A stretch of DNA of 64,000 nt from Cellulophaga sp. F20128 (GTDB lineage Bacteria > Bacteroidota > Bacteroidia > Flavobacteriales > Flavobacteriaceae). The notes beneath the pieces were generated by a model, which had not been told where the DNA came from, did no database searches, and saw only the letters and a list, made by a program, of their open reading frames with translations. This document shows positions 2,502-19,989 of this stretch, piece after piece; position 1 is the stretch's first letter; each line of letters starts with the position of its first letter. The position numbers were made by a program, and so were the translations under genes. The DNA is taken from assembly GCF_023015805.1 (NCBI RefSeq), contig NZ_JALKBA010000004.1, positions 1-64,000 on the forward strand, given 5' to 3'.

Positions 2502-3233
2502 ATGAAGAATTTAGTGTTAGTATTACTCATAACAATGGTTTCTTGTAAGAATTCAAAGAAGGAAACTATTACAGCCCAAGCTATCATAAATAGCTCTATA
2601 AAAGCAGCTGGGGGAACACTTTATGAGACGAAAAATGTAGCCTTTGGTTTTAGAGGTTTAATGTATCAATTAGAACCAAATGAAGGGAAAAAAGTGATGA
2701 GAAGAACCACTGTAAATGATTCGTTGGTTATAGAAGATGTTGTTTCTCAGGATTTTAAACGCTACATAAATAAAACGAATGTTGTTGTCCCAGATTCTAT
2801 GGCGATAAAATATACCAATTCTATTAATTCGGTTTTCTATTTTGCACTCTTACCCTATGGTCTAAATGATGCTGCCGTTAAAAAAGAATATCTAGGAGAA
2901 GTTAGTATCAAAGGTAAGGAGTACTATAAGGTAAAGGTTACCTTTTACGAAGAAAATGGGGGAGAAGATTTTGAAGATGTCTATGTGTACTGGTTTAATA
3001 AAAACACGTATTTACCCGACTATTTAGCCTATAAATTCTATACAGATGGGGGGGGTATGCGTTTTAGAGCCGCCTATAATGAACGATATGTAAGTGGAGT
3101 GCGATTTGTAGATTATGAAAACTATACACCTAAAAGCAATGAGGTTTCTGTGATGCAATTAGATAGTTTGTACCATACAAATCAGTTGCAGTTACTTTCT
3201 AAAATTGAATTGAATACTATTAATCTGTACTAA
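2502..3233 (+). CDS. Lipoprotein of unknown function (DUF6503-like)
   Basis: The 243-residue product has a short signal peptide and a Cys lipobox at about residue 15 (TMVSC), so it should be an outer-membrane or periplasmic lipoprotein. The mature part resembles the Bacteroidota family I know as DUF6503: an N-terminal helix with A-I-I-N-S-S-I-K-A-A-G-G, then a long series of beta strands resembling LolA/LppX-type lipoprotein-binding folds, with F-x-N-K-N-T-Y-L-P-D-Y in the middle. The family assignment is from memory and uncertain; no biochemical function is known to me. The 3' end overlaps the convergent histidine-phosphatase gene by 14 bases. Confidence 0.65.
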   Translation: MKNLVLVLLITMVSCKNSKKETITAQAIINSSIKAAGGTLYETKNVAFGFRGLMYQLEPNEGKKVMRRTTVNDSLVIEDVVSQDFKRYINKTNVVVPDSMAIKYTNSINSVFYFALLPYGLNDAAVKKEYLGEVSIKGKEYYKVKVTFYEENGGEDFEDVYVYWFNKNTYLPDYLAYKFYTDGGGMRFRAAYNERYVSGVRFVDYENYTPKSNEVSVMQLDSLYHTNQLQLLSKIELNTINLY

Positions 3234-15029: not shown

Positions 15030-15062
15030 ATTATGGAAAACCTATTATAGGTTTTCCATAAT
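15030..15062. terminator. glyA terminator hairpin overlapping the next gene's end
   Basis: ATTATGGAAAACCT at 15030-15043 pairs perfectly with AGGTTTTCCATAAT at 15049-15062 around a five-base loop. The right arm also encodes the last residues of the convergent minus-strand gene. There is no long T run, so its strength as a terminator is uncertain. Confidence 0.55.
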
Positions 15063-15740
15063 ATCAATATGATTTACCAAGAATAAGTCCCTCTTAAAGT
15101 TGGTATTAGTATTAACGTCATAAATTACGGGGTCTTCTTCAGACTCATAATAAAGTCCCCAGAGTCTGAAATAAGATTTTTCTAGCGCATGATGGTTTGT
15201 ACTTGCATTATTTTCTTGAAATAGTGGTAAGTATATTTCTGTTGGGAGTTCTAAATTTTCAGCTACTAAATTATCCATATTTGTAAGTACGGTTGATAGT
15301 ATTTCTTCCAACTGATTTACAATACTGTTCGGTGCAATTTTACTAATTATTAATGCCGTGTCTAATAGATAAAGTGAAAACTCAGAAAGATCAATGGAGA
15401 CCGGTGAATTTCTTCTTAATTTAGAAAAGCTATTGTAAAATTGTTGAACCCTAAAAGCACTGTGATTGGTTTTTTCTTTGAGCCAATTGTGATCGTTGTA
15501 ATAGCGGATACTTTCTGCCAACCAAAAATTGGATTGAATCTCAATACCTAATTCAATAGTTCCATTGGAATGTTCTATCACTCTTAGTAATACCTTAGAA
15601 AAATAGGCTTTTTCTAATTCATTTCTAAAGATATCAAGCTGTTCTAACACCTCATTTGGGATGGTGCTTGAATAGCGTATTGTGTTAAAATTTGATGAGC
15701 TAGACATCATAATAATTCTTAGTAGGTTACTCACTAACAA
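15045..15740 (-). CDS. Conserved hypothetical cytoplasmic protein
   Basis: I do not recognise this 231-residue protein. It has no signal peptide or membrane segment after the first dozen residues and is mostly helical and acidic, with a central stretch N-F-W-L-A-E-S-I-R-Y-Y and a C-terminal W-G-L-Y-Y-E-S-E-E-D-P. The start at 15740 is uncertain: the first ten residues (MLVSNLLRII) are hydrophobic, while MSSSSNF a little later looks more natural (ATG about 15707). It lies just downstream of a two-component pair on the same strand, separated by a hairpin at 15774-15798, so a functional link to signalling is possible but unsupported. Confidence 0.55.
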   Translation of the reverse strand: MLVSNLLRIIMMSSSSNFNTIRYSSTIPNEVLEQLDIFRNELEKAYFSKVLLRVIEHSNGTIELGIEIQSNFWLAESIRYYNDHNWLKEKTNHSAFRVQQFYNSFSKLRRNSPVSIDLSEFSLYLLDTALIISKIAPNSIVNQLEEILSTVLTNMDNLVAENLELPTEIYLPLFQENNASTNHHALEKSYFRLWGLYYESEEDPVIYDVNTNTNFKRDLFLVNHIDIMENL

Positions 15741-15859: not shown

Positions 15860-16525
15860 CTAAATAAATCCTCTTTTTTTAGCCTCGTTGATTAAGGCTA
15901 AATCATTTTCATTTTCAATATCAAAGATAAACTTTAGTTTGCGCTTTCTTGTTTCTATACTAGTAACAGAAAGATTAACAAAGTCTACCAAATCTTTTGT
16001 TTTAATACCTAGTGATAAGCGATATAGTATTTCCTTATCATCCTCGTTAATCATAATATTATTGGTCATTGTTTTTCTAAAAACATCTACCGCTGAACGA
16101 GAATAATAGGTGCTACCACTTAAAACATTATCCAGCGCCTTTTCTAAAACTTCATCAGATACTTCTGTCTTTACAATATAACCATCGGGATTTACGGTAG
16201 AAAATATGTTGCTAATTCGTAGACTATCGCTAAATGAAGACTGAAAAATGATCTTGGTTTTTGGTGAAATTTCACGTAATAATACCCCAATGTTTTCCCC
16301 TGTTTTATTCCCATCTAAATTTTCTGCATCTGGCTTTTCTATTTGAATGTCTAAAAAAGCAACATCATAAACGTTTGTTTCAATGAGTTGTTTTGCATCT
16401 AGGTATGTGCTAGCAGTAGTTAAATTAATATTGTACTTGGCAGGATTAATATCAGCAAATGTATATTTATATCCTTTTAGGATAAGTTGATGATCATCAA
16501 CAGCTAGTATATTTAGAGTTTTCAT
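15860..16525 (-). CDS. NarL/LuxR-type response regulator
   Basis: The 221-residue protein is a two-component transcription factor. The receiver domain is canonical: acidic pair D10/D11 in LAVDDHQ, phospho-acceptor D59 in AFLDIQ, a Ser at the T position (FQSSFSD), and K119 in GYIVKTE. The C-terminal region (about 150-221) is a LuxR-like helix-turn-helix with L-S-L-G-I-K-T-K-D-L-V and S-V-T-S-I-E-T-R-K-R-K-L. It follows its kinase by 12 bases, so the two are one operon and a cognate pair. The receiver has an insertion of about ten residues after D59 (I-E-K-P-D-A-E-N-L-D-G-N). Confidence 0.9.
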   Translation of the reverse strand: MKTLNILAVDDHQLILKGYKYTFADINPAKYNINLTTASTYLDAKQLIETNVYDVAFLDIQIEKPDAENLDGNKTGENIGVLLREISPKTKIIFQSSFSDSLRISNIFSTVNPDGYIVKTEVSDEVLEKALDNVLSGSTYYSRSAVDVFRKTMTNNIMINEDDKEILYRLSLGIKTKDLVDFVNLSVTSIETRKRKLKFIFDIENENDLALINEAKKRGFI

Positions 16526-16537
16526 AGGTGGGGCAAC

Positions 16538-18514
16538 TTACGCTTTGTTAGTAGTTATTATTTCACTTGAATGTAATGGAATGCTTATACTTATTTCAGT
16601 GCCTTGTCCAATTTCACTGCTGATATCTATCGTTGCATTTATTTTAGCCACTCTGGAATAAATATTTTTAAGACCAATACCTTTTTTCTTTTTGGCGACA
16701 TTAAAGCCTTCTCCATTATCAGATAAAATTACGGATAAATTGGACTCTTGTATACTAAAATTAAGAAAAATATTCTTTGCCTGTGCGTATTTGACACAAT
16801 TTTGAACTCCTTCTTGAATGATCCTGTATAGATTAATTTTTATGTCGGCGTTAAGGAGATCCCATTCTATTTTAGAATCATACGTGAGTTTTGTCTCTAT
16901 ATTAGAAGACCTTTGAGTGGTGTTGAGTAATTCTTTAATTGTACTAATGAAATTTTGTAGTTTTTCTGAAGATGCCGCGCTTAAGGTGTGAGAAATAGTT
17001 CTAATTTCTTCAGACGTTTCTTGCAACTGTTTTATAAGTTCTAGACGCTCTACAATGGTTTCTTCATCCGCTTTTTTATTGGTTGCTTTTAATATAAGAG
17101 CAATACCGGTTAGGCTTCCAATAACACCATCATGTAGTTCCTGTGATATTTTTTCTTGAACTTCTTTTCTAGCTTGTATTAGTTTGCCTTTTTGGCTTAA
17201 CATTAAATTAAAAGTTTCTAAATTTATTTGTTGTTGTTCTTGTTCAAATTTTAGTTTTTGGTTTTTCAAATACTGACTGCCAATTATAAAAACGGCAAAG
17301 GCTAGCAGTAATGCACCAATGACCAAGGAAATTAATAATTGATTCTGTTTTTCTAAGACTTGTTTTTCTCCAATTACTTCGTCTGTTTCAAATTTTATAC
17401 GTGTAAATTTTTCTTGTAAACTACGTTCTTCATTAACAAGGCTATCATTTAATACAATGTATTTGTGGGCGTAATTACTGCCGTGAGTTGGATCTACTTT
17501 TGTTAGAAGATCATAGGTTTGTAGTAATCGTTTGTTGTTTTTGTCACGAAACGAATATTCTTCAGATAGCTTTGCATGATGTAAAGATTTAATAGAATCA
17601 TTTTTGCTTAAATAAAACTCAGCCAAATTGAAATGGCTAATAGATAAACCAGAAATATCATTTAGATTATTGCGTAATTGTAAAGATTTTAAAAGGTGAA
17701 ATTCTACACTCAGAGTGTCCCCTTTTTTAAATTGTGTATAGGCTAAGTTATCCAATACTTTGGCGTAAAAACTTGGTTTTTTTTCCTTTAAACTGTCTGT
17801 TTCTAGTACTTTTTCATAAAATTTTAGGGCTTCAATATAATCTTTCTTATCCCTGTTTGCATTACCAATATTATTTAATACACTTAGGTTGTAGGTGTTT
17901 GTTGTTTTTATTTTTTTTTGATATTCTAATGCCTTTTTGTAATATTCTAATGCCCTATCAAATTCATTAAGAGCATTGGTAACGGACCCCAAATTATTAT
18001 AAGCGTAAAAAAGATCTAGTTCAGTATCATCAATCTGCTTAAATAATTCAATAGCTTTAATTGTAGAAACTTCACTACCCCGGTAATCCTTGGCTTTAGA
18101 TTGTAATAAAGCAATATAATAGAGTAAGGTACCTTCTGTTTTTGTTTCCTTAAGGTTGTGGTAAATATTCTGTGCATTTAAATAATAATAATAACTACTG
18201 TCTATTTTGGAATGCCTTGAAAAATGGTACCCTAAATCCCAATAGGCAGAGGCAAGTAAGGAAGAATCTTTAGCGATTGTAGATAATTCAATAACTTTTT
18301 TATTAGTCTCCCTAAATTGAAGCGAATCCTTTCTCAGTAATCCATTAGCGACTTTATGCAGTTGTCTTCTTTCTAAATACCCACTGTCTTCTTGTGAATC
18401 ACTGTTGGTATTAGATTTAGTTGTGTTTTTTTTGGTAGGGAGAGTGCTCTCTTTTTGCTGATTGCAAGAAAGTAAAAATAATATAACGAATAGGAATATA
18501 ATATTTTTTTTCAC
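16538..18514 (-). CDS. TPR sensor histidine kinase (NarL-system type), lipoprotein signal
   Basis: This is a membrane sensor kinase of about 658 residues. It has an N-terminal signal with a lipobox (FLLSC), a periplasmic array of tetratricopeptide repeats (A-L-E-Y-Y-K-K-A-L-E-Y and A-L-K-F-Y-E-K-V-L are typical), one membrane span (LISLVIGALLLAFAVFII), a coiled-coil, the HisKA_3 box with phospho-His about 461 in SQELHDGVIGS, and an ATPase domain with N-x-x-x-Y-A and DNGEGFNV. I place the start at GTG 18514. A longer reading from TTG 18538 would begin inside a TACCTTGC promoter -7 element. The response regulator follows 12 bases downstream. Most such kinases sense unknown signals. Confidence 0.88.
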   Translation of the reverse strand: MKKNIIFLFVILFLLSCNQQKESTLPTKKNTTKSNTNSDSQEDSGYLERRQLHKVANGLLRKDSLQFRETNKKVIELSTIAKDSSLLASAYWDLGYHFSRHSKIDSSYYYYLNAQNIYHNLKETKTEGTLLYYIALLQSKAKDYRGSEVSTIKAIELFKQIDDTELDLFYAYNNLGSVTNALNEFDRALEYYKKALEYQKKIKTTNTYNLSVLNNIGNANRDKKDYIEALKFYEKVLETDSLKEKKPSFYAKVLDNLAYTQFKKGDTLSVEFHLLKSLQLRNNLNDISGLSISHFNLAEFYLSKNDSIKSLHHAKLSEEYSFRDKNNKRLLQTYDLLTKVDPTHGSNYAHKYIVLNDSLVNEERSLQEKFTRIKFETDEVIGEKQVLEKQNQLLISLVIGALLLAFAVFIIGSQYLKNQKLKFEQEQQQINLETFNLMLSQKGKLIQARKEVQEKISQELHDGVIGSLTGIALILKATNKKADEETIVERLELIKQLQETSEEIRTISHTLSAASSEKLQNFISTIKELLNTTQRSSNIETKLTYDSKIEWDLLNADIKINLYRIIQEGVQNCVKYAQAKNIFLNFSIQESNLSVILSDNGEGFNVAKKKKGIGLKNIYSRVAKINATIDISSEIGQGTEISISIPLHSSEIITTNKA

Positions 18515-18550
18515 GTAGTAGGACTTATCTGATTGCAAGGTATAAAAAAA

Positions 18551-18573
18551 GCCTTAAATCATAGATTTAAGGC
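18551..18573 (-). terminator. Terminator after the repeat lipoprotein gene
   Basis: GCCTTAAATC pairs perfectly with GATTTAAGGC around a three-base loop and, on the minus strand, is followed by a run of seven Ts. It separates the repeat lipoprotein gene from the kinase gene, so they are not simply one transcript. Confidence 0.75.
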
Positions 18574-18596: not shown

Positions 18597-18965
18597 TTAA
18601 TCTACTTCACCACTACTTGGTTGTGGCTCACCAACTTCGTCGTCATCAGTTGCTACTTCTCCGTTGCTCGGTTGTGGCTCACCAACTTCGTCGTCATCAG
18701 TTGCTACTTCTCCGTTGCTCGGTTGTGGCTCACCAACTTCATCGTCGTCCGTTGCTACTTCACCACTACTTGGTTGTGGCTCACCAACTTCATCGTCGTC
18801 CGTTGCTACTTCTCCGTTACTTGGTTGTGGCTCACCAACTTCATCATCATCGGTTGCTTGAATGTTTTCAAATAATGCATCATCTGCTTCGTTACCATCT
18901 ACATTACATGAGAATAAGATTAAACTACAAATTACCATTCCCAAAATGTTACCTACTTTTTTCAT
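18597..18965 (-). CDS. Small lipoprotein built of five acidic 17-residue repeats
   Basis: The 122-residue product has a lipoprotein signal peptide (lipobox LFSC, Cys about 20), a linker of about 16 residues (N-V-D-G-N-E-A-D-D-A-L-F-E-N-I-Q), then five direct copies of A-T-D-D-D-E-V-G-E-P-Q-P-(N/S)-G-E-V running to the C-terminus. There is no folded domain. The array is acidic and proline-rich, so it should be an extended, flexible, surface-anchored stalk, perhaps metal- or polycation-binding. I recognise no family. It lies between a histidine kinase gene and a LytTR regulator gene. The reverse strand is also open over the repeats, but that is a by-product of the repeat composition. Confidence 0.75.
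   Translation of the reverse strand: MKKVGNILGMVICSLILFSCNVDGNEADDALFENIQATDDDEVGEPQPSNGEVATDDDEVGEPQPSSGEVATDDDEVGEPQPSNGEVATDDDEVGEPQPSNGEVATDDDEVGEPQPSSGEVD
18603..18857 (-). repeat. Five tandem 51-bp coding repeats with mosaic variants
   Basis: Units are 18603-18653, 18654-18704, 18705-18755, 18756-18806 and 18807-18857. Each unit has a left and a right variable block. The left blocks are of type A (ccactactt) in units 1 and 4 and type B (ccgttgctc or a close variant) in units 2, 3 and 5. The right blocks are of one type in units 1-2 and another in units 3-5. The blocks therefore assort independently, as expected from unequal exchange. Confidence 0.9.
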
Positions 18966-19106: not shown

Positions 19107-19841
19107 CTAATTATGCGAGGAAATTGAATTTTTGCTCATTCTATTATTAAGTACGTCTATGTTTTCTTTATAGGATTTAGAAAAAGGGACTTGTGTATCA
19201 GTTTTTTTAAGATCACAGAGGTTTTTACCATAGTTTATTCGAGATACATAATTGCTATTTAAAATATAACTTTGATGAATCCTTGTAAAATTAGGAGGTA
19301 ATTTATTTTCAAAAGTTTTCAAGGTTTTGTAGGCACTAACCTTAGTGCCATCACTTAAGAAAAAATCCGTTGTATTGTTGTCTGCCTTTAAGTATAGAAT
19401 GTCTTTAGTGTCTATGTACCTGTAATCTTTGTATGACTGCAAACATAAAGTAGAGAGGGTTGTTTCTTTTTTTGGAACTTGTTTTCTTAATTTATAAATA
19501 GACTTTCTAATATCAAATTCATTGTAAGGTAATATCCAATAATCGAAAAAACCACATTTAATGGCTTCGTAGGCATTGTCTTTGGTCTTACTCATACCTA
19601 TAACCAGAGGAATATGATTTATGTATTGGTGCAAATCAGAAACCATTTGAAAATATTCGGTGGGCTCATTCTGTAAATCGATAAATAGAATATCTGGACT
19701 ATATTTAAGTGTGTGGTTAAGTCCATCATTTGGGTTTTCCGCGATATCTGCACATACAAAGTCATCATAAGCCTCCAAAAAATGCTGTAATTGCAAATTT
19801 GAAGTTGTGTTAGATCCTATTATGACGTATGAATAATTCAC
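19107..19841 (-). CDS. LytTR-family regulator with degenerate receiver
   Basis: The product has an N-terminal receiver-like domain (about residues 2-120) and a C-terminal LytTR DNA-binding domain (about 140-236) with Y-I-D-T-K-D-I-L-Y-L-K-A-D, the FTRIHQSYILN stretch and V-P-F-S-K-S-Y-K-E. D55 (FIDL) is retained, but the acidic pair near the N-terminus is replaced (I-I-G-S-N) and the conserved Lys is lost (I-L-P-Y-N-E-F), so phosphorylation is doubtful. I choose GTG 19841 because the receiver begins there. An ATG at 19928 would add 29 hydrophobic residues and would run through a 9-bp inverted repeat at 19891-19921. No kinase is adjacent on this strand. Confidence 0.78.
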   Translation of the reverse strand: MNYSYVIIGSNTTSNLQLQHFLEAYDDFVCADIAENPNDGLNHTLKYSPDILFIDLQNEPTEYFQMVSDLHQYINHIPLVIGMSKTKDNAYEAIKCGFFDYWILPYNEFDIRKSIYKLRKQVPKKETTLSTLCLQSYKDYRYIDTKDILYLKADNNTTDFFLSDGTKVSAYKTLKTFENKLPPNFTRIHQSYILNSNYVSRINYGKNLCDLKKTDTQVPFSKSYKENIDVLNNRMSKNSISSHN

Positions 19842-19890
19842 CCTATTTATTTGATTATAAAAATACAGATAGATTGTGAGATATAATTGC

Positions 19891-19921
19891 ACGTAAACCG
19901 CAATATTTCTGAGGTTTACGT
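19891..19921. promoter_or_regulatory. Inverted repeat ahead of the LytTR gene (possible operator)
   Basis: ACGTAAACC (19891-19899) and GGTTTACGT (19913-19921) form perfect 9-bp arms spaced by 13 bases, so the centres are 22 bases (two helical turns) apart. LytTR proteins are known to bind pairs of about 9-bp elements with 12-13-base spacers, usually direct repeats. Autoregulation is inferred, not shown. Confidence 0.4.
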
Positions 19922-19989
19922 AGTCCAATTTACAACAAACTTACTATATAATAAGTAAAAACCTACAAATATAACGGTAAAAACTTACA

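Follow-up and report, generated by a model that had tools for sequence, protein, structure and literature searches.

Peptide signaling through TPR receptors is known from Bacillota, where the RRNPP/RRNPPA systems (Rap-Phr, NprR-NprX, PlcR-PapR, AimR-AimP) place a short gene for an exported precursor next to the gene of a TPR receptor, which is cytoplasmic and acts on the imported peptide. Published accounts describe Rap-Phr and its kin as a Sec-exported propeptide of 50–120 residues beside a TPR receptor, with a signal that is typically located at the C-terminus, with both the signal peptidase I and the signal peptidase II route in use, and with a duplicated signal in some precursors (PMC9765709, PMC5199041, PMC11343458). 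The same accounts report that a conserved Asn of Rap holds the main chain of the pheromone (PMC11343458) and liken multi-copy bacterial precursors to those of fungal mating pheromones (PMC5199041).

The locus analyzed here, found in a 64,000-nucleotide stretch of Cellulophaga DNA (hereafter the window), likewise contains a short gene for an exported protein adjoining the gene of a TPR protein. The TPR superhelix that characterizes the RRNPP/RRNPPA receptors is matched by a structural model, with a putative peptide pocket. The host belongs to Bacteroidota and not to Bacillota, the units comprise 11–42 residues across lineages as opposed to the penta- or hexapeptides of Rap-Phr, and the role of receptor would fall to a membrane histidine kinase whose TPR region is predicted outside the cytoplasm, so that no import of the peptide would be needed. 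Because this receptor is a membrane kinase rather than a cytoplasmic protein, we do not file the system as a member of RRNPP. As in the fungal mating pheromone precursors, the duplication of the putative signal is intragenic, within one precursor; the fungal systems are eukaryotic, use a G-protein-coupled receptor and have dedicated processing enzymes, whereas the small protein has no identified processing site. In the Gram-positive two-component systems agr and ComX-ComP, a hypervariable exported peptide is encoded beside a histidine kinase; a partner enzyme modifies or cyclizes this peptide, and membrane helices sense it. In contrast, the sensor here is a TPR domain, and the neighboring genes scanned against Pfam and NCBIfam gave no match to a peptide-modifying or cyclizing enzyme. 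The kinase is one of the TPR-containing sensor histidine kinases of Bacteroidota, and we found no description in the open-access literature of a short exported repeat protein as their partner. On balance, we lean toward the small gene encoding an exported peptide precursor that would bind, as ligand (signal), the adjacent downstream TPR histidine kinase. The system would probably work like Rap-Phr signaling, with a membrane kinase as the receptor.

The small lipoprotein gene and its relatives in Cellulophaga

The gene is located on the minus strand (18597..18965) and encodes a 122-aa product with a signal peptide (residues 1–19; 18909..18965) followed by the lipobox Cys20, a 17-residue linker (residues 21–37, NVDGNEADDALFENIQA; 18855..18905) and five tail units. 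The signal peptide and the lipobox cysteine (...ILFSC20) point to a bacterial lipoprotein, lipidation being predicted from the lipobox, of which S19 and C20 are invariant across 16 aligned rows (window included). The linker contains the family motif D-D-A-L-[FY]-E; D29 is invariant and Y32 nearly invariant in the 16 rows, with an F at the latter position in the window.

All five units are exactly 17 residues long (spacing 17, 17, 17, 17) and follow the consensus TDDDEVGEPQPS[N/S]GEV[A/D]. Unit 1 (TDDDEVGEPQPSNGEVA) lies at 18804..18854, unit 2 at 18753..18803, unit 3 at 18702..18752, unit 4 at 18651..18701 and unit 5, whose last residue is Asp instead of Ala, at 18600..18650, all on the minus strand. 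Tandem Repeats Finder returned an array at 18602-18858 (period 51, 5.0 copies, 90% matches) and thus agrees with the open reading frame on the lipoprotein of five 17-residue units that had been described in the initial annotation. The independent assortment of two variable blocks between units, claimed there as well, is borne out by the codons: block 1 (codons 1–4) and block 2 (codons 11–14) occur in three states each, and units 2–5 display all four combinations of two states per block, a four-gamete pattern. Repetition itself seems to have created the other open frames across the array. The units are devoid of Lys and Arg, which excludes a shared basic cleavage site. The window protein has no match in Pfam or NCBIfam, nor did any of ten relatives score above a cut-off in these collections; seven of the ten have sub-threshold matches to the PG1828 family lipoprotein of NCBIfam (NF050142; at most 19.3 bits against a cut-off of 50), covering their first 28–31 residues, while the window protein is unmatched.

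The minus-strand gene order is LytTR-type regulator (19107..19928), lipoprotein gene, TPR sensor histidine kinase (16538..18538, with the start perhaps at a GTG at 18514), response regulator (15860..16525) and a conserved 231-aa protein (15045..15740) without a Pfam or NCBIfam match. The LytTR gene and the response regulator gene, the latter encoding the probable partner of the kinase, were assigned by domain matches and relatives; the kinase, our proposed receptor, by domains, alignment and a structural model. These domain matches agree with the reported position of the small gene between a histidine kinase gene and a LytTR gene. An intrinsic-terminator-like hairpin with a U-run is situated between the lipoprotein and kinase genes (18551..18573, minus strand; z -6.9). 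A like hairpin is present in 61 of the 73 small gene-kinase intervals of the window and its relatives versus 1.3% of shuffled intervals, the shuffles preserving base composition only, and such a hairpin after the small gene would allow more precursor than receptor to be produced. The flavobacterial promoter motif TAnnTTTG gained no support upstream of the small gene, where it occurs in 10 of 72 cases against 8% in shuffles of the same kind. A similar string (TACTTTAGCA or TACTTTGGCA) is found at most about 60 bases upstream in three of five examples (window, L080, L103).

Within the genus, the small protein was matched in 16 of 18 genomes (E ≤ 1), and 20 stretches around the matches were taken; the weak short matches L022–L027 were set aside. 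The gene order of the window is kept in the 13 genomes that cover the locus whole or in two pieces; glyA comes next in 11 of them, and G014 is cut at a contig end. The number of repeats, initially suggested to vary between strains, differs among species: the five Cellulophaga genomes with a whole array contain six (G012), five (window and G005), four (G004) and three (G008) units, and since both genome collections searched hold one genome per species, these copy numbers compare species. The arrays of G006, from the same repeat-bearing clade, are interrupted by contig ends. DNA identity of the units is 80–91% within and 58–89% between species. The protein of G014 is 70% identical to the window protein over residues 1–44 and continues with the 11-residue unit TDNDQIKPVGF, where the contig breaks off; the same unit is found in L079, also at a contig end. 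The draft assemblies L032, L033, L034 and L079 break inside the repeat arrays; short-read copy numbers may therefore be too low, and some such genes may miss annotation.

Eight other Cellulophaga genomes encode a 49- to 56-residue protein with a single tail at the same locus, and this tail is of the Cys-x-x-Cys type in seven of the eight. Five short paralogues elsewhere in the Cellulophaga genomes accompany other TPR kinases; three are immediate neighbors and two stand at a distance of about 1.1 kb. Among the paralogous loci, the small gene is separated from the kinase by about 1.1 kb in L041, L047 and L181, with an opposite-strand gene between them in L181.

Pairing with TPR kinases across Flavobacteriaceae

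A profile of 16 small proteins was run on 299 Flavobacteriaceae genomes, with 230 matching at E ≤ 0.01; many of the weak hits belong to other lipoproteins. A same-strand TPR kinase gene directly adjoins the small gene in 29 of the best 30 loci, two of which (L048, L049) contain sequences used to build the profile; the exception is at a contig end. For comparison, 20 mid-score and 20 weak-score matches were picked by hand outside the locus set. Sixteen of the mid-score matches are kinase-adjacent, one has a kinase 1.08 kb off and three (L189, L195, L200) have none within about 3 kb, versus a single kinase-adjacent case among the 20 weak ones.

The pairing was also viewed in reverse by a kinase-only scan of the family genomes, of which the best 80 of 366 loci were used. 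Since the 128 filtered loci had partly been chosen by the small gene, the following locus counts refer to these 80 kinase-selected loci; the two locus sets have several organisms in common and are thus two views rather than independent samples. The 80 loci contain 89 kinase ORFs, 72 with a small exported ORF upstream, 12 without and five near a contig end. Counted by locus, the small ORF is present in 71 of 80, that of L137 looking mis-picked. Four of the loci without one are at a contig edge (L079, L132, L141, L156), and in L078 the array is cut by the contig end. The others are L090, whose first kinase is at a contig edge, one unread locus, and L154 and L155, with no ORF directly upstream that passes the filter. 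This filter is a simple signal-peptide heuristic with a few wrong picks (L137 and the first entry of L153), and it selected an ORF before the kinase in 70 of 76 cases versus 24 of 416 before seven neighbor genes. At the level of the phylum, the kinase profile at E ≤ 1e-60 matched 20 of 198 genomes, and 19 of these, counting that of the window, belong to Flavobacteriaceae. The kinase frame was located in 13 of the 23 loci of this search, all 13 with a small exported candidate upstream. The pairing across the family strongly supports the role of sensor partner, one of three suggested in the initial annotation.

Several loci deviate in their organization. L155 carries a tandem pair of similar genes for short exported proteins, located about 285 and 515 bases ahead of the kinase frame, a case of whole-gene duplication and not of an intragenic repeat. 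In L090, L095, L097 and L124, two to three TPR kinases follow one another, preceded by no more than one small exported gene, the later kinases having no small ORF of their own; in L095, an array of five 13-residue units precedes the first kinase. L204, L213 and L219 share one gene neighborhood around a short lipoprotein (near position 3000) with a D-x-LYD-like motif and no TPR kinase near it.

The wider neighborhood is conserved too. LytTR is present at 61 of the 80 loci, and the complete set of LytTR, kinase, response regulator, 231-aa protein and glyA at 56, spanning Maribacter and Zobellia to Muriicola; no LytTR match was obtained in the five paralogous Cellulophaga loci fetched. The 231-aa protein, of no known family, adjoins the response regulator in 62 of the 80 loci.

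The kinase exceeds the curated cut-offs for TPR_12, HisKA_3 and HATPase_c and consists of a signal/lipobox-like N-terminus, the TPR region, one membrane helix and the HisKA_3/HATPase part, a layout that predicts the TPR domain outside the cytoplasm. The sensor was modeled (351 residues, 64 sequences, comprising 63 of 83 listed sensor stretches and the window) with a pLDDT of 93.8 and a pTM of 0.89, as 15 TPR-like helices followed by a long last helix. Foldseek ranked designed TPRs and LGN/Pins complexes at the top, and the first 50 entries also include O-GlcNAc transferase, kinesin light chain and Rap with or without pheromone (6t46, 8rsv), the Rap entries having a TM by query of about 0.5–0.65. 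The sensor profile matches 143 PDB sequences, among them NprR (4gpk, 6.4e-11) and RapF (4i9c, 5.2e-10); the likeness is therefore to TPRs in general, and TPR domains bind many things.

Over six repeats, the mean entropy is 2.63 bits at groove positions, 1.95 at other helix-A positions and 2.16 at other helix-B positions (groove against other positions, Mann-Whitney p 0.001 and 0.009), with the groove positions (2, 5, 9, 12 and 13) and the repeat registers set by hand on the TPR numbering that we take to apply. Asn178 (position 5), Asn179 and Asn220 (both position 6) are nevertheless conserved in 59, 61 and 59 of the 64 sequences, respectively. They are on helix A of the repeats and may correspond to N226 of Rap; an Asn at repeat position 6 is common in ordinary TPRs. 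In all 24 hand-chosen pairs examined, conservation is lower in the TPR region than in the kinase domain, which is usual for sensors and not in itself proof. Charge matching of tail and sensor was considered and dropped, as the two charges are uncorrelated (rho -0.09, p 0.43, n 73).

The same pairing would also suit a tethered accessory or inhibitor, i.e., an anchored lipoprotein that influences the kinase in cis by co-sensing the state of the envelope, and we regard this as possible but rather unlikely. Comparable to other lipoprotein sensors of envelope stress, such a protein would sense lipoprotein transport, cations or redox, its repeats would set valency or reach, and no signal would leave the cell. 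A lipobox is present in 41 of the 72 upstream small ORFs at the kinase-selected loci, the kinase has a lipobox-like Cys of its own near the N-terminus (invariant in 13 rows), and the Cys-x-x-Cys tails found at the same locus elsewhere would suit a redox or metal sensor. However, 31 of the 72 ORFs contain no lipobox by pattern, or 28 after three doubtful rows are dropped (the mis-picks L137 and first of L153, and L123, whose Cys was missed). The anchor is therefore not essential to the family, although the window protein does have one. Moreover, related species can differ in the entire unit (11 versus 17 residues), while the copies within an array stay alike, and a single conserved stimulus leaves both unexplained.

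Repeated amplification of the tail and selection on its copies

The sequences of the repeated units are unrelated between lineages. In Zobellia, a 14-residue unit occurs in 5, 6, 7 and 10 copies, with one copy in Z. uliginosa DSM 2061; strain D16 and Lentiprolixibacter contain three copies of 13 residues, Flavobacterium ASW18X four of about 14, Maribacter thermophilus and MMG018 three of 41–42, and another Maribacter five of 13. Glycine-rich units of 13–17 residues are present in 3–5 copies in Flavobacterium, and units of about 11–12 residues in five copies in Dokdonia. G049 has six 15-residue units of the Cys type, and G460 and G120 have five of 13 residues each. In our reading of the sequences, many lineages share a core T-[DE]-[GD]-[DE] running to a basic residue, to which C-x-x-C would be the equivalent elsewhere. 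The tails of L038–L046, L098–L144 and L161 show C-x-x-C where others have T-x-x-D, some as CxxCH. The C-x-x-C tails could be a disulfide or metal-dependent form of the same tail.

This variety bears on the surface stalk and the metal sink that were initially suggested. A non-signaling role of this kind, with the adjacency to the kinase due to chance or the small gene being a target of the kinase, would fit the strongly acidic, proline-containing tail of the window protein, yet it is very unlikely: the pairing with a kinase recurs at both syntenic and paralogous loci, in many relatives the same locus encodes a single short tail and no stalk, and tails in other genera are glycine-rich or contain Cys. 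As a main role, both were rejected.

Amplification is concentrated in the small gene. Eighteen of the 21 in-frame arrays (period of 27 or more, 2.4 copies or more) are located in small genes, which represent 1.39% of the 1,085,190 bp of the 80 loci and the window, and two of the other three belong to the same small gene, truncated by the end of a contig. In a tree built from 104 kinase rows (100 different; 8 of the 30 family loci included, chosen by hand), the distribution of multi-copy and single-copy states needs nine changes, of which at least seven are forced by starred branches, the labels (23 multi, 69 single, 12 unlabelled; two-copy L059 as multi) having been set by hand and the tree being of a quick kind with a long-branch warning that includes L149. 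These counts alone do not separate gains from losses; it is the unrelated unit sequences of the different lineages that argue for several separate gains of the multi-copy state. L149 also contains, at L149:1-3454, an array with a 228-bp period and about 15 copies, upstream of the Dokdonia pair and unrelated to the small gene.

Between the copies of one array, pooled over 19 arrays, pS is 0.36 and pN 0.03, which gives a pN/pS of 0.08 (L059, L078, L079, L149, L161, L174, L192 and L198 were left out). Ratios of single arrays range from 0 to 0.42 (maximum in L143), and one array is without any difference; in the window array, pS is 0.46 and pN 0.03. The copies have thus diverged at synonymous sites and still encode a near-identical protein, which indicates selection on each copy: they are not simply fresh duplicates, and the protein sequence matters. 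Together with the conserved N-terminus of the relatives, the mostly synonymous differences also support that the frame is translated, a point on which the initial annotation had made its reading depend. Its proposal of unequal exchange or slippage holds in part: the mosaic blocks and the change of copy number between species fit such a process, but recent slippage alone is insufficient at the pS and pN of the window array. A neutral disordered tail that slips freely as a mutational by-product, for which the tolerance of disordered tails to length change and the exchange between units seen in the mosaic blocks could be cited, is most improbable given the low pN/pS over the 19 arrays, even at its single-array maximum, and the near-absence of arrays from neighboring genes.

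Proposed signaling and its meaning for the family

In the ligand reading that we favor, the signal peptide and the lipobox would export the precursor from the cytoplasm and anchor it. The tail core (TDDDEVGEPQPSNGEVA here, often TDGDD...R[DG] in relatives) would be read outside the membrane by the concave TPR groove, and the bound core would change the output of the kinase, in either direction, by way of the response regulator encoded next to it. A molecule with five copies of the core may raise the local dose or the valency of the ligand, whether released by a protease or displayed on the tether; diffusion of a released form and any role between cells are steps that we infer. The terminator-like hairpin would let the precursor exceed its receptor.

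Extended to the whole family, the reading becomes one of peptide communication in Bacteroidota, with exported, often multi-copy and fast-diverging pheromones that would each be read by an adjacent membrane TPR kinase. We put this forward tentatively, as a possibility short of an expectation. If it is true, the tail sequence would separate strains or species into signaling groups, and a change of signal would involve all copies of an array together. The copies within one gene are near-identical while the sequence, length and number of the units turn over between related species. Should the repeated tail be read by the kinase, the Flavobacteriaceae of marine and freshwater habitats would possess genetically encoded peptide signals of their own, recognizable from sequence, which would offer many testable ligand-receptor pairs and a clean case of a repeated peptide and its receptor changing together.
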